Program-made: the position numbers and the translations under genes
The notes under the pieces: model-generated
What the model was told of the DNA's origin: nothing
The model's database searches: none
Seen by the model: only the letters and a program-made list of their open reading frames with translations
Shown here: piece after piece, positions 51,965 to 64,000 of the stretch
Position numbering within the stretch: position 1 is the stretch's first letter
Layout of the letters: each line of letters begins with the position of its first letter
DNA from: Halohasta litchfieldiae
GTDB taxonomy: Archaea; Halobacteriota; Halobacteria; Halobacteriales; Haloferacaceae
Assembly (NCBI RefSeq): GCF_002788215.1
Contig: NZ_CP024845.1
Coordinates: forward strand, 2,108,001-2,172,000
DNA length: 64,000 bases
Reading direction: 5' to 3'

Positions 51965-53269
51965 TCAGGCGACGGCCTTTTCGAGTAGTTCGAGGGGGTG
52001 TCGGATCTCGTAACCCGTGCCGTGGTTCATCTGCATCGCACAGGTCGGACACTCGGTCATGCCAACCTCTCCTTCTGCGTGTTCCATGTGATCGAACATC
52101 TCCGCGCCGATCTTCATCGAGGTTTCGTACTTCTCGGACTTCCAACCGTAGGTCCCCGAGATACCGGAGCAGGATTCGCCGACGTCCTCGATGTGGGCAC
52201 CGTCGAGTTCACGGAACAGTTCGACTGCCTGCCGGTCGAGGCCCTGGTTCCGGGCGTGACACGGCGCGTGGTAGGCAAACGACTGTGGGTCGACTTCGCT
52301 CTCGCGGATGGCCGCGCCCAGATCCTCGTGAATCCGGAGGAACTCCATGGCCTCGTAGGTATGTTCCGAGAGATCTTCGATCCCCTCGATGTCGAACAGT
52401 TCGGGGTACTCTTGGCGGAGTGCCATCGAACAGGAGGTACAGGAGGCAACCACGTCCGCGCCGTTCTCGATTGCCTTGCCCAGTTCGCGGACGTTGACTT
52501 CGGCCTCGCGGCGGGCGTCTTTCAGCATCCCGTTGGCGAACATCGGGGTGCCGGAACACTGCTGTTTGGGCACCAGCACCTCGTAGTCGAAGGATTCGAA
52601 GACGCGAACCATCGCCTTGCCGACCTCGGGCGTGTTGTAGTTCGAGTAGCAACCGTGGAAGTAGGCGACCTGTTTGTCCGGGTTCGTGACCTTCGAGCCG
52701 CCGCGCTTCTTGAACCACTGGCGGAAGGTCTCGGTAGCAAACTCCGGCACGTCGCGCTCGCTGGGAATACTCATGATCTTCTCGCCGAGGACGCTGGTGA
52801 TGCCCAGTCCCATCACGAAGTTCGCGAGCCGTGGGACCTTGCTCCCGATGGAGGCCAACGTCCGGTAGTTCGAGAGCATTCGGTTGCGGAGATACTCGAT
52901 GGACTTCTTGTCCATGTGTTCCTCGACGTACTCCCCGCGTGCGGTGTTGTGCATCTGGCTCAGTGGGACGCTCGACGGACAGGCGTCGTCACACCGCATA
53001 CAGTTCGAACACGAGAGGATCGAATCGTCGATGTCGACGTCCTCGCCGCGTTTGAGCCGCCACTGTTCTGGGCCCTGGAATTTGGGGCCGGGGAAGTCCT
53101 CGTCGACTTCGGCAACTGGACACGACGTATCACAGCTCGTGCATTTGTAACAGTTGTCGGCTCCGGGTCGAAGGTCCATATCCTCCGAAGAGGGGAAGAC
53201 GTCGACCGGCTCGAACTCATCTACTTGCGTCGTCGGATCGAAATCGCTTGCTTGTTCTGCGTCGCTCAT
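51965..53269 (-). CDS. glpC: Anaerobic glycerol-3-phosphate dehydrogenase subunit C
   Basis: A 434-residue iron-sulfur subunit that passes electrons from GlpA to the membrane quinone pool. Two ferredoxin-type clusters are seen: CYKCTSCDTSCPV and CSNCMRCDDACPS. Two CCG-type domains follow, with FHGCYSNYNTPEVGKAM, CSGTPMFANGM and CHARNQGLDRQAV, CSGISGTYGWKSEKYETS. It overlaps glpB by four bases. It is the last gene of the glpABC operon. Confidence 0.95.
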   Translation of the reverse strand: MSDAEQASDFDPTTQVDEFEPVDVFPSSEDMDLRPGADNCYKCTSCDTSCPVAEVDEDFPGPKFQGPEQWRLKRGEDVDIDDSILSCSNCMRCDDACPSSVPLSQMHNTARGEYVEEHMDKKSIEYLRNRMLSNYRTLASIGSKVPRLANFVMGLGITSVLGEKIMSIPSERDVPEFATETFRQWFKKRGGSKVTNPDKQVAYFHGCYSNYNTPEVGKAMVRVFESFDYEVLVPKQQCSGTPMFANGMLKDARREAEVNVRELGKAIENGADVVASCTSCSMALRQEYPELFDIEGIEDLSEHTYEAMEFLRIHEDLGAAIRESEVDPQSFAYHAPCHARNQGLDRQAVELFRELDGAHIEDVGESCSGISGTYGWKSEKYETSMKIGAEMFDHMEHAEGEVGMTECPTCAMQMNHGTGYEIRHPLELLEKAVA

Positions 53270-54564
53270 TGGTGTACCTCGTGTTTTGCCGCCTGCTCGC
53301 CAGCCCGTTCACCAGCAACCACCGCAGTTGCCAGCGAGACACCGCTCTGTGATTTTTCCGCAACCGTATCGGCACCGCCGATCACTGCACCCGCCGCCCG
53401 GAGGTTCGTGAACTCCGGGGCCTCGTCGGCGGTCAGTGGTCGCATCGTCTCGTCGACCCGAACGCCGAAGTGGGCAAACGGCTGGTCGGCGAAGGCTTGC
53501 TTGTCGAACCAGTCGTAGCGGTCCTCCGGATGGGGAATGTGACAGTCGAAAATCGGCTCGGTCACACCCTCCTCGCGTCCTGAGTCGATTCCCTTGCCGA
53601 CCAGTCCGCCCGTCGCCAGCACGAACTCGTCGGCGTGGAATGGCACCTCTCGGCCCTTGCTGTCGACGATAACCGCCGTCAGTTCGCCATCCTCGACCTC
53701 GTAGTCGACGACGGGGTTGCCGGACGAAATACGGACGCCCGCCTCGTCGACTGCTTCCTTCAATCTGTCTGCGAGCCGCATCCCGGGGTAGCTCGGTGGC
53801 CCCATCGGGATCTCGAAGACGTCGACGCCGAGATGGCGTTCGAGGTCGGTTCGCACGTCTGCGGTGTGTTCGTCGCCGAGGAACGCCGGGAGACCGACGC
53901 GTTCGGCATCACCGAGGTGTGGTTTGACCTGCTCGGCGAGCGCCTCGCGGGCACCCATTGTCCGACCCTCGTACTCGACGTCTTCGTTGCCATCGAGTCG
54001 TTTGGCCAGCCGCGTCACCCGCGAATCGTTGGCGTAGCTGCCGGGGAAGTTGCATTCGACACCCTCGGCATCGAAGGGGACGCCTGCATCCTCTAAGTGG
54101 TCGGCGAGCATCCCACCGTTGTACTCGGTCATCTCCTCGAAGCCGACGATCAACATCGGTCGCTCGTCGCTCGCGATCCCTGCCGCAGCCGCCGAAGGGT
54201 AGCGAGCAGTCGGTTTGACCGCGCCGCCGAACGTCGGGATCAGGGCGTTGGTGTCGGTATGGCTGCCCTGATAGCTGTCGCCGACAATTTCGTCGAACCG
54301 GTCGAGCCCGTCACGGATCGCCGTCTCACCGGCTACCGAGTACGGATGCTCCTCGGGCAGGTCGTCGACTGCCGAAAACGGATCGGCAATCGGGTCGTCG
54401 CTGCCGTTGTAGCCCAGTATGTCGATCAGGCCGCTGGCGTGGCGGAGGGTACTCTTTTTGTAGGTAACAAGCCGGACACTAGCGCCGGTTTCGGCGGCCT
54501 CGATGGCCGCAATCGAGCCAGCAAGCCCGCCGCCGATCACGATCACGTCTTCACGAATCGCCAT
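53266..54564 (-). CDS. glpB: Anaerobic glycerol-3-phosphate dehydrogenase subunit B
   Basis: A 432-residue FAD/FMN-dependent subunit. The dinucleotide motif VIGGGLAGSIAAIEAAETGA opens the protein; GLPAFLGD, IPMGPPSYPGMRLAD and FVLATGGLVGKGIDSG are typical blocks. GlpB links GlpA and GlpC. Starts and stops overlap both neighbours, showing tight translational coupling in the operon. Confidence 0.93.
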   Translation of the reverse strand: MAIREDVIVIGGGLAGSIAAIEAAETGASVRLVTYKKSTLRHASGLIDILGYNGSDDPIADPFSAVDDLPEEHPYSVAGETAIRDGLDRFDEIVGDSYQGSHTDTNALIPTFGGAVKPTARYPSAAAAGIASDERPMLIVGFEEMTEYNGGMLADHLEDAGVPFDAEGVECNFPGSYANDSRVTRLAKRLDGNEDVEYEGRTMGAREALAEQVKPHLGDAERVGLPAFLGDEHTADVRTDLERHLGVDVFEIPMGPPSYPGMRLADRLKEAVDEAGVRISSGNPVVDYEVEDGELTAVIVDSKGREVPFHADEFVLATGGLVGKGIDSGREEGVTEPIFDCHIPHPEDRYDWFDKQAFADQPFAHFGVRVDETMRPLTADEAPEFTNLRAAGAVIGGADTVAEKSQSGVSLATAVVAGERAGEQAAKHEVHQ

Positions 54565-56306
54565 TAGTCATCCCCCTTTCGGCCGCCGTCGGTCGCAGCA
54601 GTTCCGGCTGCGCCGCCGGAGGCACTGGTTCCCTGACCGCTGTCGAACGCCGAAAAGTCGACGACTGCGTCCGTGGTCGCGGCGTCCTTGTCGCGGTTCA
54701 TCGTCGTCGCGTGCAGCGAGTATTTGAGCGCCGCCTGCGAGAGCTGGGTGCCCCACATCGCGTGGCGTTCACCCTTCCAGCGCTCCTGATACAGTTCGTC
54801 CCACGCCTCGTAGGCGACCTCCGAGTCGTAGTCGTCATACAGCTCTGCGGCCATCCGGTGACAACAAAAGGCCCCTTGACAGTTCCCCATCGAGGCACGC
54901 GTTCGAAGCCGGGTGGCGTTGAGGTCCGATCCTGAACCCTTGATCCCGTCTTTGACCTCCGCGCGCGTGACTGCTTCACACTCACAGACGACCGGGTTCG
55001 GGCCGTCATAGTCGAGTACCTCGTCGGTTCGGGAGCCGAGTCGCTGGGCGCTCCGTCGACCGATTGGCGAGCGAATCCCGTACTGATCCATGTAGTCCCG
55101 CAGAACTGAGAAATCCTCACTGCCCGGCAGCGGCACATCCGCAGTCCGGCATTCGGCGTCGATGCCGAACTTCTCGCAGACGTGGTCGGAGATATCTTCG
55201 CCCATCATCCGGTAGGTGGTGAACTTCCCGCCGACGATGGAGGTAAAGTTCTTGACACTGTCGCGCTCCTCGTGGTCGAGCAAGAAGAAGTCCCGGGTAA
55301 TGTCGGTCGAATCGCTCGTTCCGGTTCCCGGCGGCTCGTACAGCGGTCGGACTCCCCAAAAGGAGCGAATCGTTCGGGCCTCTTCGATGATCGGCACCAG
55401 TTCCGACAGCGTGTCGATCATCAGATCAACTTCCCACTGCTCTTCGGGGTAGTCCTCTGGATCTTCGACCTCGACGTCTGTGGTGCCCAAAATTGCGGTC
55501 GTCTCGTGTGGGACGATAATATCGGCGTCGCCCTTTGGTTTACAGCGGTTGATCGCGGTGTCGACCTGTCGGGTGTTCATAATCGTCATGACACCTTTTC
55601 CGGGTCGGACCTCGATTTCCTGTTCGAGCCCGGCCATCTGGCCGATGCGGCCGGCCCACGCGCCGGTTGCGTTGACGACATAGTCCGCATGTATCTCTTC
55701 GCGCGTGCCCGGCTCGCGGTGGACGCGTTTGCCGGGGCCGGATTCGTGTTCGACCTCGACGCCGACGACCTCGTCGCCCTCCTTGAGGATGTCGACGACT
55801 GGCGCGTGGGTCTCGATGCGCGCGCCGTGTTCCTCGGCACTGGCGGCGTTGGCCACACAGAGCCGGAAGGGGTCGACTGCGCCGTCGGGTACCTTGATCG
55901 CGCGCTTGATGTCCTTGGCGAGGTAGGGTTCGATCTCGCGGGCCTCCTCGGCCGAAAGTACCTCTGCTGGGATGTCGCACTCCCGACAGCCCTCCAGTTT
56001 CTTCTGGAAGTACTCATCGGAGTCTTCGGGCCGCTGGACGAACAGTCCGCCGGTCATCTCGACACAGTGGCTGGCGATGTCCCGTAGTACGCGGTTTTCT
56101 TCGATACACTCTTTCGCACTGGCCTGATCAGCAACAGCGTACCGACCGCCGCTGTGCAGCAACCCGTGCATCCGTCCTGTCGTCCCGTGAGTGAGGTTCC
56201 CCTGTTCGACGAGAGTGACCTCGACGCCGCGCATTGCGAGGTCGCGCGCAATCCCGCACCCCGTGGAACCCCCTCCGATGACGATAACGTGTGGCTTGTT
56301 ACTCAT
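54564..56306 (-). CDS. glpA: Anaerobic glycerol-3-phosphate dehydrogenase subunit A
   Basis: A 580-residue FAD-dependent catalytic subunit that oxidises sn-glycerol-3-phosphate to dihydroxyacetone phosphate. FAD motif [19 protein letters not shown], and [18 protein letters not shown]. The C-terminal part has a bacterioferritin-associated [2Fe-2S]-like region ([13 protein letters not shown] and [12 protein letters not shown]). The ATG at 56306 is preferred; an upstream ATG at 56327 would sit in the promoter. First gene of the glpABC operon, divergent from glpK. Confidence 0.95.
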
Positions 56307-56332
56307 CCGTTCAGTCGGATTTTGCACTATAG

Positions 56333-56602: not shown

Positions 56603-58138
56603 ATGTCAGAAACATACGTTGGTTCCATCGATCAAGGGACTACAGGAACGCGGTTCATGGTCTTCGACCATGGTGGTAACGTCATCGCAAACGCATATGA
56701 GAAACACGAGCAGATTTATCCGGAGCCCGGTTGGGTCGAGCACGACCCGATGGAGATCTGGGAGAACACGAAGTCCGTAATCAACACGGCTCTCGAACAG
56801 GAAGGCCTCGACGCCGAGCAGCTCGACGCGATCGGTGTCACCAACCAGCGAGAGACCACAATCGTGTGGGACGCCGAAACCGGCAAACCAGTCCACAACG
56901 CGCTGGTCTGGCAGGATCGACGAACCACCGACCGTGTCGAAGAGATCCAGGAGATGGGCAAAGTCGAAGATATTCGAGAGAAAACGGGTCTCGAATGTGA
57001 CGCCTACTTCTCGGCAACGAAGACCGAGTGGATTCTCGACAACGCAGATCCGATCAAACTCCAGCGATCCCGACCACAGGATGTTCGAGAGCGAGCCGAA
57101 CAGGGTGAGCTCCTGATGGGGACCATCGACACGTGGGTTATCTACAACCTTACGGGTAACCACATCACGGACGTTTCCAACGCATCGCGGACGATGCTGT
57201 ACAACATCCGAGAGCTCGAGTGGGACGACGAACTCCTCGATCTCTTTAATGTTCCAAAATCGATGGTGCCGGAAGTCCGACCTTCGTCGGACGACGAGAC
57301 CTACGGGTCGACGGACGCAGACGGCTTCCTCGGTGCCGAAGTGCCTGTCGCAGGCGCACTCGGTGACCAGCAGGCCGCCCTGTTCGGTCAGACCTGTTTC
57401 GACGCAGGCGACGCCAAGAACACCTACGGAACCGGTTCGTTCATGCTGATGAACACCGGCAACGAGGCCGTTCCATCCGAACACGGTCTCCTCACCACGA
57501 TTGGCTTCCAGCGCTCGGGTGAGCCAGTTCAGTACGCCCTCGAAGGCTCGATCTTCATCACTGGTGCCGCCATCGAGTGGCTCGAAGACATGACCCTTAT
57601 CGAGGACGCCGCCGAATCCGAGAGTCTCGCACGCAGCGTCGACTCGACGGACGGCGTCTACGTCGTGCCCGCCTTCGCCGGTCTCGGTGCCCCCCACTGG
57701 GATCAGCGCGCACGTGGTACCATCGTCGGCATGACGCGTGGTACCCGACGCGAGCACGTCGTTCGTGCAACCCTCGAATCCATCGCCTACCAGACCAAAG
57801 ACGTCGCCGAGGCAATGGTTGAGGACGCAGACATCGATCTGGCCAGCCTCCGTGTCGACGGTGGGGCCGTCAAGAACAACTTCCTCTGTCAGATCCAGTC
57901 CAACATCATCGGGACCGAAATCGTCCGACCAGTCGTCGACGAGACCACCGCGCTCGGTTCGGCCTACGCCGCTGGCCTCGCGGTCGGCTACTGGGACACG
58001 GTTGACGAACTCCGTAACAACTGGCAGATCGACCGCTCGTTCGAAGTCGACGAGGACGCTAACATCGAGGTCAACTACGACCGATGGAAGGACGCCGTCG
58101 AGCGTGCTGAAGACTGGGCACAGGACGGTGGTGAATAA
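56603..58138 (+). CDS. glpK: Glycerol kinase
   Basis: A 511-residue FGGY kinase converting glycerol to sn-glycerol-3-phosphate, the main use of environmental glycerol in haloarchaea. Blocks include SIDQGTTGTRFMVFDHGG, TNQRETTIVWD, ALVWQDRRTTDR, FGQTCFDAGDAKNTYGTGSFMLMNTG and the ATP-site region DGGAVKNNFLCQIQSNIIG. The ATG at 56603 is preceded by AAGGAG. First gene of the glpK-glpX operon, divergent from glpABC. Confidence 0.97.
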   Translation: MSETYVGSIDQGTTGTRFMVFDHGGNVIANAYEKHEQIYPEPGWVEHDPMEIWENTKSVINTALEQEGLDAEQLDAIGVTNQRETTIVWDAETGKPVHNALVWQDRRTTDRVEEIQEMGKVEDIREKTGLECDAYFSATKTEWILDNADPIKLQRSRPQDVRERAEQGELLMGTIDTWVIYNLTGNHITDVSNASRTMLYNIRELEWDDELLDLFNVPKSMVPEVRPSSDDETYGSTDADGFLGAEVPVAGALGDQQAALFGQTCFDAGDAKNTYGTGSFMLMNTGNEAVPSEHGLLTTIGFQRSGEPVQYALEGSIFITGAAIEWLEDMTLIEDAAESESLARSVDSTDGVYVVPAFAGLGAPHWDQRARGTIVGMTRGTRREHVVRATLESIAYQTKDVAEAMVEDADIDLASLRVDGGAVKNNFLCQIQSNIIGTEIVRPVVDETTALGSAYAAGLAVGYWDTVDELRNNWQIDRSFEVDEDANIEVNYDRWKDAVERAEDWAQDGGE

Positions 58139-58140
58139 CG

Positions 58141-59121
58141 ATGGTACTCGGAACACAGCTCGGTGACCCAACGTTCTGGATTGCCGCCTTCGCAGGCGGT
58201 GCCTTCGGTGCTGCAATCGGTGCACTGCCAGCGTTCATCATGACCGGCTTCGCAGTCATCGCCGGTGAAGCACTCGGTATTGCCGGCGAGTCGATCGTCG
58301 ACAGTGGTAGTTCGATTACGAGACTCGTCGGCTTCGGTCCGGTCTTCGGTCCGCACATTTCGTTCGCAGGTGGTGCCGCAGCGGCCGCATATGCAGCCAA
58401 GCAGGGCTACATGGACGACGGAAAGAACATCCTGTGGGCCGCCGGAACGAACCACATTGACGTGCTGATGGTCGGTGGTATCTTCGGTATCTTCGGCCTC
58501 GTCGGGACGAACCTGCTGAACTTCATCGGGTTCCCGACTGACAACATCGCGATGCTGGTGTTCATCTCGGCAATCGTTCACCGTGTTGCCTTCGGCTACA
58601 GCGTCATCGGTGAGGTCACCGGTAACGGCCTCTTCGATGTCGGTCCGTGGGAGCGCGACGAGGACGAAGCACCCGGCATCTGGCTGCCGTGGCAGTACAA
58701 GTGGGCTAACGTCGCTCTGATCGGTATTATCGGTGGTATCCTCGGTGGATTCCTTTACCAGGCGACCGGCAGCACCACGCTCAGCTTCGGTCTCAGCGCA
58801 GCTAGCCTGGTCTTCCTGCAGGCGGGAACCGACAACATCCCCGTCACTCACCACATCACGCTGCCCGGCTCGGTCGGTGCACTGGGTGCAGCCGCAGCGG
58901 GCTACAGTCCCGCTCTCGTGCTCATCTTCGGTGGACTGTTCGGCCTCTTCGGCGCAACGATGGGTGAGGTCTGTAACCGTGTGTTCTACATGCACGGCAA
59001 GACCCACGTTGACCCACCGGCGTTCGGTATCCTGATGTCGGGGCTGCTCTCTGCAGTCCTGACCGCCGCCGGTGTGCTGGGTGGCACGTTCTGGGCCCCA
59101 ATCACCGCACTGCTGGGCTAA
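58141..59121 (+). CDS. glpX: Putative glycerol facilitator membrane protein (haloarchaeal GlpX)
   Basis: A 326-residue membrane protein with about nine hydrophobic segments rich in Gly and Ala (FWIAAFAGGAFGAAIGAL, NHIDVLMVGGIFGIFGLVG, LIGIIGGILGGFLY). It begins two bases after glpK. In Haloferax the gene after glpK is described as a putative glycerol facilitator called glpX; order and composition match. Note that bacterial GlpX is an unrelated fructose bisphosphatase. Transport of glycerol is inferred, not shown. Confidence 0.75.
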   Translation: MVLGTQLGDPTFWIAAFAGGAFGAAIGALPAFIMTGFAVIAGEALGIAGESIVDSGSSITRLVGFGPVFGPHISFAGGAAAAAYAAKQGYMDDGKNILWAAGTNHIDVLMVGGIFGIFGLVGTNLLNFIGFPTDNIAMLVFISAIVHRVAFGYSVIGEVTGNGLFDVGPWERDEDEAPGIWLPWQYKWANVALIGIIGGILGGFLYQATGSTTLSFGLSAASLVFLQAGTDNIPVTHHITLPGSVGALGAAAAGYSPALVLIFGGLFGLFGATMGEVCNRVFYMHGKTHVDPPAFGILMSGLLSAVLTAAGVLGGTFWAPITALLG

Positions 59122-59276: not shown

Positions 59277-60446
59277 ATGAATATCGAAGAGCGGATCCTC
59301 CGTCGCCAGCGGACCGACCACGAACCACAGCTGGTACGGGAATCCGACGCGTTGAACCCGATTGCCCACCCCTCCGAGCCGACCGGTCGCGGACTCGTGA
59401 TCGAGCAGTTGCTCGACCTCCTCGATCCGATCTTCGACGGTCGACCACCGGACGATTGCTACGTCTGGGGACCGAAAGGAACCGGCAAATCCGCCGTCAT
59501 CCGCGCGGTGTTTGCCCGTCTCGACCGACTGATGGGTCGCTCTACGGGTCAAATATACACCACCACGCGCGCGCAACCAACCGCCGACGTCGCATTCGTC
59601 TACGTCGACGGCCGCCAAGCCAAAACCGAGTTTGCCCTGCTCCATGCGGTGCTCAACAGTCTCGCTACTGATCCAGTCCCGAAACAGGGCGTGAGCGTCG
59701 ACACCATTCGGAGCCGGTTGGCCGCCCGGCTCGACGGCGACCAGTGTGTCGTCGTCGCGGTCGACCACATCGAAGAACCGGAGACGCTGTCGATCCAAAC
59801 TGTCTGTGAACAGTTTGAGCCCCTCGGCTCGTCGGTGACGCCCGTGCTCTGTGGCCAGCTCGACCCGGCGGAGGCCGAGACCGACGCTCTGGATGCCCCC
59901 AAAACGGTTCGGTTCGATCCCTACCGTCGACACACACTCATCGAGATCCTGACTGGTCGACAGACCGACGGGCTGATCAGAGCCGCCGTCAGCCACGAAC
60001 AGCTCCGGGAGCTGGCCAACTGGGCCGACGGCGATGCCCACGACGCGCTGGCGGCGCTGTTCAGTGCGGGACTCATTGCCGACGACAACGGCCACGACGG
60101 GATCGAGGCGGCCGATCTCACTGACGGAATGGCCGCGGTCCCACGGCCCTGTGTCTCTCTCGGACGCGTGTTGGCGCTGCCCGAGAGTCGACAACAGATC
60201 CTGTCTCGACTCACCGAACTCCCCGAAACCGACCGCAACTCCGTACGTGCGGCCGCCGATGAGATCGCAGACGGCGGCGTCGACCTCTCGCGGGCGACTA
60301 TCGAACGCGTGCTCTACGAACTCGCCGAGGCTGGTGTCATCCGACGCCTCAAAGTCGACGACGCCAAACAGGTCGGCCGCCCACCCTCCCGACTCGAACC
60401 GCGGTTCCCCACGCTCGTCTTTCGCCACCTCTCTGCTGTGAACTGA
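59277..60446 (+). CDS. Orc1/Cdc6-like AAA+ ATPase with winged helix
   Basis: A 389-residue AAA+ protein of the haloarchaeal Cdc6/Orc1-related group. Walker A is WGPKGTGKSAVI near residue 63. The Walker B position reads VVVAVDHIEEP, with His where the canonical DE glutamate would be. The C-terminal 80 residues (RNSVRAAADEIADGGVDLSRATIERVLYELAEAGVI) form a winged helix. It resembles replication initiator relatives, but many haloarchaeal copies have no nearby origin and none is seen in this gap. A regulatory or DNA-binding ATPase role is possible. Confidence 0.75.
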   Translation: MNIEERILRRQRTDHEPQLVRESDALNPIAHPSEPTGRGLVIEQLLDLLDPIFDGRPPDDCYVWGPKGTGKSAVIRAVFARLDRLMGRSTGQIYTTTRAQPTADVAFVYVDGRQAKTEFALLHAVLNSLATDPVPKQGVSVDTIRSRLAARLDGDQCVVVAVDHIEEPETLSIQTVCEQFEPLGSSVTPVLCGQLDPAEAETDALDAPKTVRFDPYRRHTLIEILTGRQTDGLIRAAVSHEQLRELANWADGDAHDALAALFSAGLIADDNGHDGIEAADLTDGMAAVPRPCVSLGRVLALPESRQQILSRLTELPETDRNSVRAAADEIADGGVDLSRATIERVLYELAEAGVIRRLKVDDAKQVGRPPSRLEPRFPTLVFRHLSAVN

Positions 60447-60501: not shown

Positions 60502-60516
60502 GAGGGTGTCATAGAA
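60502..60516 (+). repeat. Left terminal inverted repeat of the IS
   Basis: GAGGGTGTCATAGAA, identical to the reverse complement of 61556-61570. Confidence 0.9.
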
Positions 60517-60550
60517 AGCGTCACACACGAAGACGCAGGATGTTGGAACT

Positions 60551-61549
60551 GTGTCTACGAGCGCCAGCATCCTGCAAGAGGAGACTTCTATCGACGAGTT
60601 CTTCAATGTAATGGCGACCGAGACGCTCGCGTTGTTCGAGCATCTTGAGTTCGACTTTCTCGAAGAATTCGATGTGTTCGCCCCCGCTCGCCGGGGGCGA
60701 ACACGAGATCATCACCCACCAGCACTCTTCCGAGCGTTCCTGCACTGCTACTACAAGAACGTCTACGGCATCCGTCCAGTCACGCGAGAACTCCAGAACA
60801 CGGTCGTCTGGCTCAGCTGTGGCTTCGATCGACCGCCGTCGAGAGACGCGGTCGATCGCTTCCTCACCGACCTCGAACACGTCGTCGACGAGGTCTTCGA
60901 CCGCCTCGTCGAGCAGGCCGCCTGCCGCGGCCTGCTCGACTTGACCTACTCCATCGATTCCACCGACGTGAGGACGATGCCCGCCGACCAAGACGCGTCG
61001 AAAGGCTACGATCCAACCGCCGAAGAGTACTACCACGGCTACGGCTGTACGATCGTCTCGACCGGGCAAAAGATCCCGATTGCCGCGGAGTTCACCGAGA
61101 GCAAGCAAGCGCCAGAGGAGACGGCGATGCGCGTCACGTGTGACGCGCTCGCCGTCGAGAAACCGATCTGGATGCTTGGAGACAGCGCCTACGACACGCT
61201 CGGCTGGCACGACCACCTGCTGGCCGCAGGGGTCGTGCCAGTCGCTCCGTACAACGCACGAAACACCGACGATCCGAAAGACATCGAGTACAGGGTCGAA
61301 GCCCGCATCGACGAACACAGCGAGGACGTTCAGCTGAAGCAATCGACGCTAGACGAGACGTACAACCGCCGGAGTGGAGTCGAACGAACCAACGACGCCG
61401 TCAAGGACTGCGGCCTCGGGCACGTTCGCGCCCGAGGCCGCGTCCACGCACGAGCACAAGTGTTCCTCGCGCTGTGCCTTCGTCTCGTTATTGCGATCAC
61501 CAACGACGAACGCGGAGACAATCCAGGAAGCACCGTCATCACGCTATGA
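60551..61549 (+). CDS. DDE transposase of the IS element
   Basis: A 332-residue transposase with a probable DDE triad: Asp in the YSIDSTDVRT segment, Asp in WMLGDSAYD and Glu in NRRSGVERTND. The N-terminal helical part (LFRAFLHCYYKNVYGIRPVTREL) precedes the catalytic core. It starts at the GTG 60551, 34 bases inside the left repeat, and stops seven bases before the right repeat. The frame is intact, so the element may be autonomous. The group is IS4/IS5-like; closer naming needs database comparison. Confidence 0.9.
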   Translation: MSTSASILQEETSIDEFFNVMATETLALFEHLEFDFLEEFDVFAPARRGRTRDHHPPALFRAFLHCYYKNVYGIRPVTRELQNTVVWLSCGFDRPPSRDAVDRFLTDLEHVVDEVFDRLVEQAACRGLLDLTYSIDSTDVRTMPADQDASKGYDPTAEEYYHGYGCTIVSTGQKIPIAAEFTESKQAPEETAMRVTCDALAVEKPIWMLGDSAYDTLGWHDHLLAAGVVPVAPYNARNTDDPKDIEYRVEARIDEHSEDVQLKQSTLDETYNRRSGVERTNDAVKDCGLGHVRARGRVHARAQVFLALCLRLVIAITNDERGDNPGSTVITL

Positions 61550-61555
61550 GAACTA

Positions 61556-61570
61556 TTCTATGACACCCTC
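61556..61570 (+). repeat. Right terminal inverted repeat of the IS
   Basis: TTCTATGACACCCTC, exact reverse complement of the left repeat. Confidence 0.9.
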
Positions 61571-61577: not shown

Positions 61578-61586
61578 TTTATTTTA
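61578..61586 (+). promoter_or_regulatory. TATA-like box of the transducer gene next to the IS
   Basis: TTTATTTTA lies 24-32 bases upstream of the ATG at 61610, ideal spacing for a leaderless archaeal promoter. It begins 8 bases from the IS right end, so only the upstream regulatory region has been displaced. Confidence 0.55.
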
Positions 61587-61609
61587 ACCATGGGGTTACT
61601 TTCGACAAC

Positions 61610-64000
61610 ATGCGCGAACACTTGAGAGTCATTCACACTGTTGGGCCGTCCGCTGTCAGTCGGCATCGGATCCGGCGCGGCGGTGTCGGTATCGGACTTC
61701 TTGTTGCTTTTCTCGGTGTGAGTAGTCTCACGGATCTCTCACTGGCTGCTGGCGCAGCCGTCGGCTTTTTCGGGCTGTTTTCGAAGCCGGGAGACGACGA
61801 CGAGTCGACGGCGGCCGACGATAGCGAGCCGTTGGCCCCCGACGAGGGCGGCAGTTCGGCAGTCGAGACCGATTCGGCCGTGGATGCTGAGACCGAACCG
61901 GAGTCGGGTGGGACCGAAGACAGCCAGCCGGCAGTCGACAGTACACCGTCGGATAAGGTGACGACCTCCAATGAGGTTGCGGCCTCCAACGAGGTAGCGG
62001 CCTCCGATGGCGGTGAGCCGGTGGCCGCCGAGTATTCGTCCGACGACGGTGGCTCTCAATCGTCGGCCGTCGACTGGCAGCATCTCTCTTCGAAGCTCTC
62101 GACGGCAATGCAACAGTGCGCCGAGGGTGATCTCACTGTCCGACTCGACGTCGACCACGACGACGACAACGCCGCCGAGGTGGCACGGTCGTTCAACCAC
62201 ATGCTCGATGAGTTCGAGGACACGATCCAGACCGTAGACGAGTTTGGCAATCAGGTCGAGGGCGCGACCGAGCGCGTGACCGGCCGCGTCGACGAGGTCA
62301 AATCCGCGAGCAAGGAGGTCAGTCACTCCGTGTCGGGCATCTCGGACGATACCGCCAAACAACACGAGATGGTCGACGATCTCTCCAACGAGATCCGGTC
62401 GCTGTCGGCAGCCACCGAGGAGGTCGCCTCCTCGGCCAACGAGGTCGCCGAAGCCTCCGAAACTGCCGCCCAGCGCGGCGAGAAAGGCCGCGAGCTGGCG
62501 ACAAACGCCCTGGCCGAACTCGACGAGATCGATACGCGCACCAGCCGGACGCTGGAGGCCACCGAGGAACTCGACGAGCTAATTGGCGAGATCGAGGACA
62601 TCGCGGAGTTCATCGGCGAGGTCGCCAGCCAGACCAACATCCTCGCGCTCAACGCCTCCATCGAGGCCGCCCGCGCCGGGGAAGCTGGCGAAGGGTTCGC
62701 CGTCGTCGCAAACGAGGTCAAAAGTCTCGCCGAGGACGCCGAGGAGGCTGCCGGCGACATCGAGAAATCGATTGGCAACGTCCGCGAACAGGCCGACACC
62801 ACCGTCGACGAGATGCACGAAACCCGCGAACGGATCGACGCCGGTGTCGACACCATCGAGGGCGCAGTCAAAACGTTCCGCGAGATCGCAGACGACGTCG
62901 AAGAAACCAACGTCGGTGTCCAAGAGATCAGCGAGGCGACCGACAGTCAGGCGAACTCGCTGCAGGAGGCCGCTGCGATGGTCGACGACGTGGGCGATAT
63001 CTCCGACGAGACCGCCGAGCGGTCGGTGACGGCGGCCTCGGCGGCCGAACAGCAGACCACCGCGCTGGCCGAAGTCTCAACCGGTGTGACGACCCTCGAC
63101 GAACGGGTCGACACACTCGACAAACTGGTTAACTCCTACCAGACCCGTGATACCCGCTCCAAGACGTCCGTGGACGCGAACGTCACCTCCATCGAGTTCT
63201 GGCACGCGATGGGTGGCGAAAAGGGGCTGCTGCTCGAAGAGCTGATCCGGGAGTTCGAAGAGCAGGCCGACGGGATCCAGATCAACGCCACCTCGAAAGG
63301 CAGCTACCGCGGTACCTTCCAGTCGACGCTGTCGGCCGCCGAGAAGGGGTCCGGACCGGCGCTGGCCCAAATTTACGAGATCGGGACCGCCCAAGCCCTC
63401 GATAGCGGGGCGTTCACCCCCGTCGAGGGTGTCCTTCCTCGTAGCGTTTCGATGAGCGACTATGTCGACCCCGTGTTGAGCTACTACCGAACCAACGGTA
63501 CGCTGAACTCGATGCCGTTCAACTCCTCGGTGCCGATCCTCTGTTACAACGAGCAGGCCTTCGAGCGGGCCGGACTCGACCCCAACAACCCGCCGACAAC
63601 GTTCGCCGAGGTCACCAGAGCGGCCGAACAGATCGTCGACAACGGCGTCGCCGAGAAGGGAATCACCTTTGCCAACTACTCGTGGTTCGTCGAGCAGTGG
63701 TTCGCAACCGCGGGCCAAGAGATCGTCAACAAACAGAACGGCCGAGCCGGAACGCCCGACGAGGCCTTCTTCGACAGCGATGCGGCCAAGGAAATCTACA
63801 CCTGGTGGACCAACCTCGACCGAGAGGGACTGTATCACAACCCCGGCATGGAGGCCCGCGGGAAGGCCAAATCGGCGTTCTACGAGGGAACCGCGCCGAT
63901 GGTCATCGCCTCCTCCTCATCGGTGGGCGGAATTACCGACGAAGCCTCCTTCGATGTCGGTATCAGCGGCCACCCGACGCCCGGTCAGGGCGAGGGACTC
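61610..64000 (+). CDS. Chemotaxis transducer fused to an ABC-type solute-binding domain, 3' end outside window
   Basis: A continuous frame of 797 codons with no stop before the window edge. Residues 25-60 are hydrophobic ([29 protein letters not shown]), one or two membrane helices. About 85 acidic linker residues contain a duplicated SNEVAAS. A HAMP-like region ([16 protein letters not shown]... [11 protein letters not shown]) is followed by an MCP signalling hairpin with tip [20 protein letters not shown] near 337-356. From about residue 520 the chain enters a family-1 solute-binding protein ([53 protein letters not shown]), resembling UgpB and maltose-type binders. No membrane helix separates the two parts. 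The frame reads straight through the junction. Confidence 0.85.

Follow-up and report, generated by a model that had tools for sequence, protein, structure and literature searches.

The window, a stretch of 64,000 nucleotides (G000:C1:2108001-2172000) from a source chromosome of 3.33 Mb, ends inside a gene that joins a chemoreceptor to a solute-binding domain. Its plus-strand frame is open from the ATG at 61610 to the end of the window, and the stop lies 399 bases beyond (L009:3610-6399). The last 132 amino acid residues and the stop, located outside the window, complete the binding domain. The genes and features of the locus are:

51965..56327, minus strand: glpC-, glpB- and glpA-like genes (anaerobic-type glycerol-3-phosphate dehydrogenase), named from their sequences and gene order
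56603..58138, plus strand: glpK, the glycerol kinase that makes glycerol-3-phosphate (TIGR01311, 710.7 bits, cut-off 590)
58141..59121, plus strand: membrane protein of 326 aa beside glpK, with no Pfam or NCBIfam match
59277..60446, plus strand: Cdc6-like AAA protein (AAA_16, Cdc6 lid, weak HTH matches)
60502..61570, plus strand: insertion sequence with the inverted repeats GAGGGTGTCATAGAA / TTCTATGACACCCTC and ACACAA on both sides
61578..61587, plus strand: TATA-like box TTTATTTTAA, about 28 bases before the ATG
61610..64000 and 399 bases past the window end (G000:C1 up to 2172399), plus strand: fused chemoreceptor gene, 929 aa
61682..61783, plus strand: N-terminal hydrophobic stretch, aa 25-58, with basic residues at both ends
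61784..62074, plus strand: acidic linker, aa 59-155, fast-evolving and modelled with a pLDDT of about 30
62093..62218, plus strand: HAMP domain, aa 162-203 (Pfam PF00672, E 5.8e-7)
62165..63133, plus strand: antiparallel helical hairpin of the MCP type, helices aa 186-356 and 361-508 (full-length model; PF00015)
62633..62653, plus strand: hairpin tip core TNILALN, near-invariant in an alignment of 27 fused proteins
63176..64000, continuing past the window end, plus strand: UgpB-type solute-binding domain, aa 523-929

The fused protein consists of a short hydrophobic N-terminus, an acidic linker that is probably disordered, a HAMP domain, a signalling hairpin and a C-terminal solute-binding domain. 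The MCPsignal match (PF00015) covers aa 294-463 with an E-value of 1.5e-41; the core of its tip is, by family knowledge, presumably the CheA/CheW-binding site. Two Pfam families, SBP_bac_8 (aa 544-845, E 1.5e-41) and SBP_bac_1 (aa 542-832, E 3.2e-27), match the C-terminal domain. The UgpB model NF008211 of NCBIfam was found at aa 523-900 with E 3e-70 and 237 bits, a score below its cut-off of 411. The full-length structural model (pLDDT 73, below 50 at the N-terminus and the junction) was used only for helix boundaries. The initial annotation had read membrane helices, HAMP, MCP hairpin and solute-binding domain in one frame; the frame and the last three elements were recovered, while the membrane helices reduce to one hydrophobic stretch (around aa 25-58) that is not clearly composed of helices. 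The remaining 3' sequence was also read for a further membrane helix, and the last 132 residues contain none.

The insertion sequence is delimited by 15-base inverted repeats, and its right end has 31 other matches in the source genome. It was inserted upstream of the TATA-like box, and 39 bases separate its end at 61570 from the ATG of the fused gene. The sister species L040 has the uninterrupted insertion site. The box recurs upstream of the orthologue in L040 and is less closely matched in L041, and the promoter may be of the leaderless type. That the insertion sequence truncates the gene was ruled out by the alignment of the ATG region and the TATA-like box with L040: as both the frame and the promoter-like box are common to the sister species, the fused gene is complete. 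The insertion sequence is not part of the receptor. Its insertion just before the TATA-like box might affect expression of the fused gene.

The solute-binding domain was searched in 391 haloarchaeal genomes and matched in 128 of them; 70 loci with a likely fusion, including the one described here (L009), were fetched. The same architecture, an MCP and a UgpB domain in one open frame, was found in 67 of the 391 genomes, distributed over 14 genera and three families according to the labels of the search. Named carriers among the matches listed are Halohasta, Halonotius, Natronocalculus, Halorubrum, Haloferax, Haloarcula, Halomicrobium, Halapricum and Natrialbaceae, and the nearest named relatives among these matches are Halohasta litorea and H. 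salina. Of the three fetched loci without the full frame, L206 and L207 start at a contig edge and L205 is degenerate. The reading frame of L066, counted in the 67 with part of its MCP in frame, is interrupted close to the tip, and in L119, a named record outside the 70, the break comes earlier in the hairpin. These interrupted or degenerate copies (L066, L119 and L205) belong to single Halorubrum, Halapricum and Haloarcula-type genomes and represent either draft errors or recent losses.

A sequencing error at the junction or a missed stop, which the initial annotation had named as grounds for refutation, was ruled out by its presence in one frame at 67 of 70 loci. Homologues encoded as two separate genes did not account for it either, since the fused domains form one clade apart from the stand-alone genes. 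A maximum likelihood tree was calculated from 61 solute-binding domains, namely 31 of the 67 fused proteins (with the long-branch row L078 kept), 22 stand-alone proteins and eight bacterial sequences. All 31 fused rows clustered in one clade within the haloarchaeal UgpBs (support 100/99). Hence, as far as this tree shows, the fusion seems to have arisen once and to have been kept thereafter. Between Halohasta species, dN/dS was 0.065 and 0.147 for HAMP and hairpin, 0.125 and 0.165 for the solute-binding domain and 0.43-0.51 for the linker. The recurrence of the same one-frame fusion in 67 genomes together with low dN/dS in both halves argues for more than a chance joining. Outside the haloarchaea, 16 bacterial loci (L162, L165-L179) among the best 80 had frames of 439-586 aa, a length that cannot accommodate the fusion, in a contig alignment scan that does not prove its absence there.

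The neighbouring genes point to glycerol. Genes of the glp or dha type were present in the fetched flanks of 29 of the 67 fused loci and glpK in those of 27, or 28 counting the locus described here, whose glpK lies in the window and outside L009. At 20 of the 67 loci the start of glpK lies 132-230 bases beyond the solute-binding match on the same strand; loci with glpK directly downstream are mostly of the Haloarcula/Halomicrobium type and have glpABC upstream in divergent orientation. The gene series in Halohasta, Halonotius and Natronocalculus runs glpK, the predicted glycerol transporter, the Cdc6-like protein and the fused gene, followed in Halohasta and Natronocalculus by ptsI and dhaLK. 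The assignment of the 326-aa membrane protein as a transporter is a prediction: it fits an unnamed glycerol transporter family predicted in the literature (PMC3102087). The Cdc6-like AAA protein, encoded at 27 of the 67 fused loci, may regulate the glycerol genes. No glp or dha genes occurred in the flanks of the other 38 loci (Halorubrum, Natrialbaceae, Halapricum and most Haloferax), a finding that weakens any strict operon argument. Two further glycerol kinase genes are encoded in the source genome (G000:C1:662959-664476 and 935193-936719), 97% and 82% identical to that of the window.

At the level of whole genomes, a match to the CheA dimerisation domain was present in 67 of 67 genomes with the fusion and in 314 of 391 overall, and a GlpK match in 67 of 67 and 341 of 391, respectively. 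The Fisher values of 1.2e-7 and 7e-5 overstate the evidence, as both genes are widespread in any case and the genomes share ancestry. UgpA- and UgpE-like permeases were encoded in the fetched flanks of none of the 67 fused loci versus 16 of 17 stand-alone loci, the calls having been checked with Pfam on examples. In one Haloferax genome a glycerophosphodiester phosphodiesterase (GDPD, L081:8378-9079) adjoins a stand-alone UgpB and its permeases, suggesting glycerophosphodiesters as the transported substrate of that system.

UgpB is the glycerol-3-phosphate (G3P)-binding protein of the ABC importer UgpBAEC, with structures from Escherichia coli (PDB: 4AQ4 and 6X84) and Phaeobacter (9LFF). Residues 525-906 of the fused protein match E. 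coli UgpB with bound G3P (4AQ4) with E 6.6e-60. A model of the solute-binding domain alone reached a mean pLDDT of 90.6, and its best structural match was UgpB: 6X84 with Z 52.8, an rmsd of 1.4 over 402 residues and a Foldseek TM of 0.93, compared with Z 48.1, 3.0 over 406 residues and 0.86 for the ligand-bound 4AQ4 and Z 47.4, 2.7 over 399 residues and 0.87 for 9LFF. In the published description of UgpB, the hydroxyls of glycerol-1-phosphate (G1P) and G3P are contacted by E88, G303 and R393, the phosphate by Y64, S143, S266 and Y342, and the ligand is clamped by W188 and W191 (PMC12718374). These pocket columns were mapped through the alignment with 9LFF (chain number equals paper number plus 20). 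Eight of the nine positions, Y64, E88, S143, W191, S266, G303, Y342 and R393, are kept in 43 of 43 fused proteins. The exception is W188, replaced by Asn in 35 and by Thr in eight. With this pocket the fused domain likely binds glycerol phosphate. The stand-alone proteins L080, L093, L095, L096 and L097, one of them from the source genome, lack E88 and R393 and probably bind a different ligand; this group of five rows is the nearest stand-alone group in the tree.

The pocket also bears on the most serious alternative, a cytoplasmic receptor for another metabolite, such as dihydroxyacetone phosphate, the lipid precursor G1P, or a glycerophosphodiester, or one that senses the PTS/DHA branch, the genes of which adjoin it in Halohasta. 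The position following W188 holds Tyr in all 43 fused proteins versus His in 16 of 17 stand-alone haloarchaeal UgpBs, and the replacement of W188 together with this adjacent, fusion-specific Tyr indicates that the ligand specificity may have shifted. UgpB itself takes G1P besides G3P, and relatives accept glycerophosphocholine and UpG (PMC12718374); moreover, ptsI and dhaKL are adjacent at five of the 67 loci. On the other hand, all four phosphate and all three hydroxyl contacts are kept, 17 of 17 stand-alone haloarchaeal UgpBs already have Asn at position 188, and glpK is the commonest linked pathway gene (27/67). Another ligand is therefore a possibility to be taken seriously, with perhaps one chance in four.

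A further explanation, that the domain no longer binds a ligand and serves as a structural or regulatory add-on in oligomerisation or partner docking, appears unlikely. In its favour, the broken copies L066, L119 and L205 show that some lineages carry the gene in interrupted or degenerate form. Against it, eight pocket residues are invariant in 43 of 43 fused proteins and the dN/dS of the domain is low (0.125-0.165).

The initial annotation had placed the binding domain on the cytoplasmic side or else invoked an unusual topology. The homologues favour the cytoplasm. N-terminal hydropathy, calculated as a 19-residue Kyte-Doolittle mean from the first possible start codon, had a maximum of at most 1.04 in 61 of 67 fused proteins, which puts the whole protein of these members, together with its sensor, presumably in the cytoplasm. 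Values of 1.28-1.31 were obtained for two Halonotius copies and of 1.8-2.4 for four others (the copy in the window, L040, L041 and L048). No membrane helix was found between the hairpin and the C-terminus, where the hydropathy maximum was 1.57, reached once and inside the solute-binding domain. None of the 41 fused N-termini inspected has a Tat or lipobox export signal, and 17 of 17 stand-alone haloarchaeal UgpBs carry a twin-arginine (Tat) lipoprotein signal. The location of the sensor domain of the fused family in the cytoplasm is thus well supported by sequence; for the copy in the window, it is predicted from these relatives, most of which have no membrane segment.

Hydrophobic N-termini are confined to one nested group of the tree (support 99/97) formed by Halohasta, Halonotius and Natronocalculus, a group that includes L053, truncated at its N-terminus by the end of the contig. 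This confinement suggests that the soluble state is ancestral and that the N-terminal anchor was derived later in a small subclade. In this group the stretch is flanked by basic residues on both sides (FSK, FSRPW, FWR), a pattern that would suit a short hairpin or in-plane anchor whose two ends stay inside the cell; that of the copy in the window is probably a membrane anchor or such a short hairpin. A single pass or signal anchor that places binding domain and hairpin outside the cell would find an argument in this copy, with its one stretch (KD19 1.83) preceded by basic residues and followed by an acidic linker. Such a topology is very improbable: 61 of 67 relatives have no hydrophobic N-terminal stretch, those that do belong to a single nested group, the basic residues occur on both sides of it, and the CheA-binding hairpin, the best conserved part of the protein, would be exported.

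MCPsignal (PF00015) was matched in 27 of 27 fused members and HAMP (E<=0.001) in only six of these 27. The two alignments comprised 27 (A1) and 25 (A2) of 41 fused proteins. The distance from the tip to the start of the solute-binding domain is 183-188 residues in 65 of 66 fused proteins. All 66 also have a methylation-type motif that precedes the tip by 76 residues and makes receptor adaptation plausible; after the tip a motif was present in 18 of 66. Pfam scans of the copy in the window and of the 27 members gave no match to a Cache domain. The source genome encodes 11 MCP frames, eight archaellin matches and one CheA match, and with archaellins and a single CheA match, a working receptor whose Che-like output controls something else than swimming, such as gene regulation, is the least probable of the alternatives.

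The reading we prefer is a cytoplasmic chemoreceptor that reports internal glycerol phosphate made by GlpK through a UgpB-type domain at the C-terminal end of the hairpin, to which we assign a probability of about 0.58. The sequences speak for it through the fusion and the single origin of it, an intact pocket, the context of glycerol genes, the presence of CheA and, in most fused members, the lack of export signals and membrane segments. Against it count the 38 loci with no glp or dha neighbours, the replaced W188 and its adjacent Tyr, the UgpB score below the cut-off, the hydrophobic N-terminus of the copy in the window, the few members with a HAMP match and the poor full-length model at the N-terminus and the junction. 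The intracellular sensor of an imported solute that had been suggested for this gene thus keeps its location, as judged from the homologues; the imported solute gives way to glycerol phosphate, the likely ligand of the UgpB-like domain, made inside by GlpK.

For such a glycerol-phosphate receptor we infer the identity of the ligand, lobe closure, signal direction and tethering as follows. Glycerol would enter the cell and be phosphorylated by GlpK, and sn-glycerol-3-phosphate, or a close relative such as glycerol-1-phosphate, would close the two lobes of the UgpB domain. As the hairpin is antiparallel, its C-terminal end adjoins the HAMP end of the four-helix bundle, the usual place of input in receptors, and the constant distance between tip and solute-binding domain (183-188 residues) gives the latter a constant position at the bundle base. 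Lobe closure may act there on the hairpin helices as HAMP movement does in ordinary receptors and, passed on to the tip, change the activity of CheA. The cell would be steered by the flux of glycerol in use and not by external glycerol. In Halohasta and its nearest relatives, the short hydrophobic N-terminus may tether the receptor to the membrane.

The fused domain resembles UgpB in its fold over the whole domain (Z 47-53), in 30-31% sequence identity and in all ligand contacts but W188. Unlike UgpB, it is predicted to lie inside the cell, lacks an export signal and permease neighbours, is joined to a chemoreceptor and has Asn or Thr in place of W188 with an adjacent invariant Tyr. As export signal and permeases were absent where tested, the fused protein is not a UgpB transport protein. 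In the systems BasT/BasB and CosT/CosB of Halobacterium salinarum a separate extracellular binding protein informs the transducer; in contrast to these pairs, the fused family has both functions in one predicted cytoplasmic polypeptide (one frame, 67/70 loci). TlpD and other soluble receptors carry at their C-terminus the CZB domain, a small, helical zinc-binding domain. The fused family shares with TlpD a sensor on the C-terminal end of the hairpin and differs from it by a two-lobed solute-binding fold instead of CZB.

Solute-binding proteins have been described as working outside the cell (PMC9602780). The text of a survey of archaeal receptors lists SBP_bac and C-terminal domains among receptor domains, and its class V of cytoplasmic chemoreceptors likewise has a soluble MCP, in some cases with a sensor after the hairpin (PMC9680633). 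The copy in the window has one hydrophobic stretch, and 61 of the 67 family members have no membrane segment. That text names neither the UgpB family nor the ligand, the glycerol gene context or the single origin, and supplementary Table S5 of the survey may hold members (PMC9680633). Supplements aside, no description of a UgpB-MCP fusion was found in the open-licence literature. The fused family is a variant of the cytoplasmic archaeal receptors with a C-terminal ligand domain, for which no prior description was found. A functional parallel is offered by sCache_PC3/PacP, chemoreceptors with which plant-associated bacteria perceive glycerol-3-phosphate; they were presented in 2025 as the first evidence that receptors bind phosphorylated compounds (PMC12395807). 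The fused family would share with them the sensing of phosphorylated C3 compounds including G3P, but sCache_PC3/PacP perceives external G3P with a bacterial Cache domain (PMC12395807), whereas the fused family would use an unrelated UgpB domain inside an archaeal cell.

In the fused family a solute-binding fold appears to have been moved inside the cell and wired to the hairpin of a chemotaxis receptor with its predicted pocket intact. Glycerol is an algal osmolyte, and glycerol-3-phosphate is the first product of its use. In brines, glycerol is a main food of haloarchaea (PMC3102087). That haloarchaea on a single occasion took the domain over from extracellular transport to serve as the sensor of a cytoplasmic chemoreceptor, and that the cells navigate by internal glycerol-3-phosphate, has slightly better than even odds. 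If so, metabolic taxis would proceed through a dedicated receptor for an internal metabolite, and the fused proteins would add to the chemoreceptors for phosphorylated C3 compounds a second family, unrelated to the first. The family is present in culturable Haloarcula and Haloferax species and hence directly testable. With the ligand confirmed, it would illustrate directly, at the molecular level, how taxis in archaea can depend on metabolism, in this case that of glycerol.
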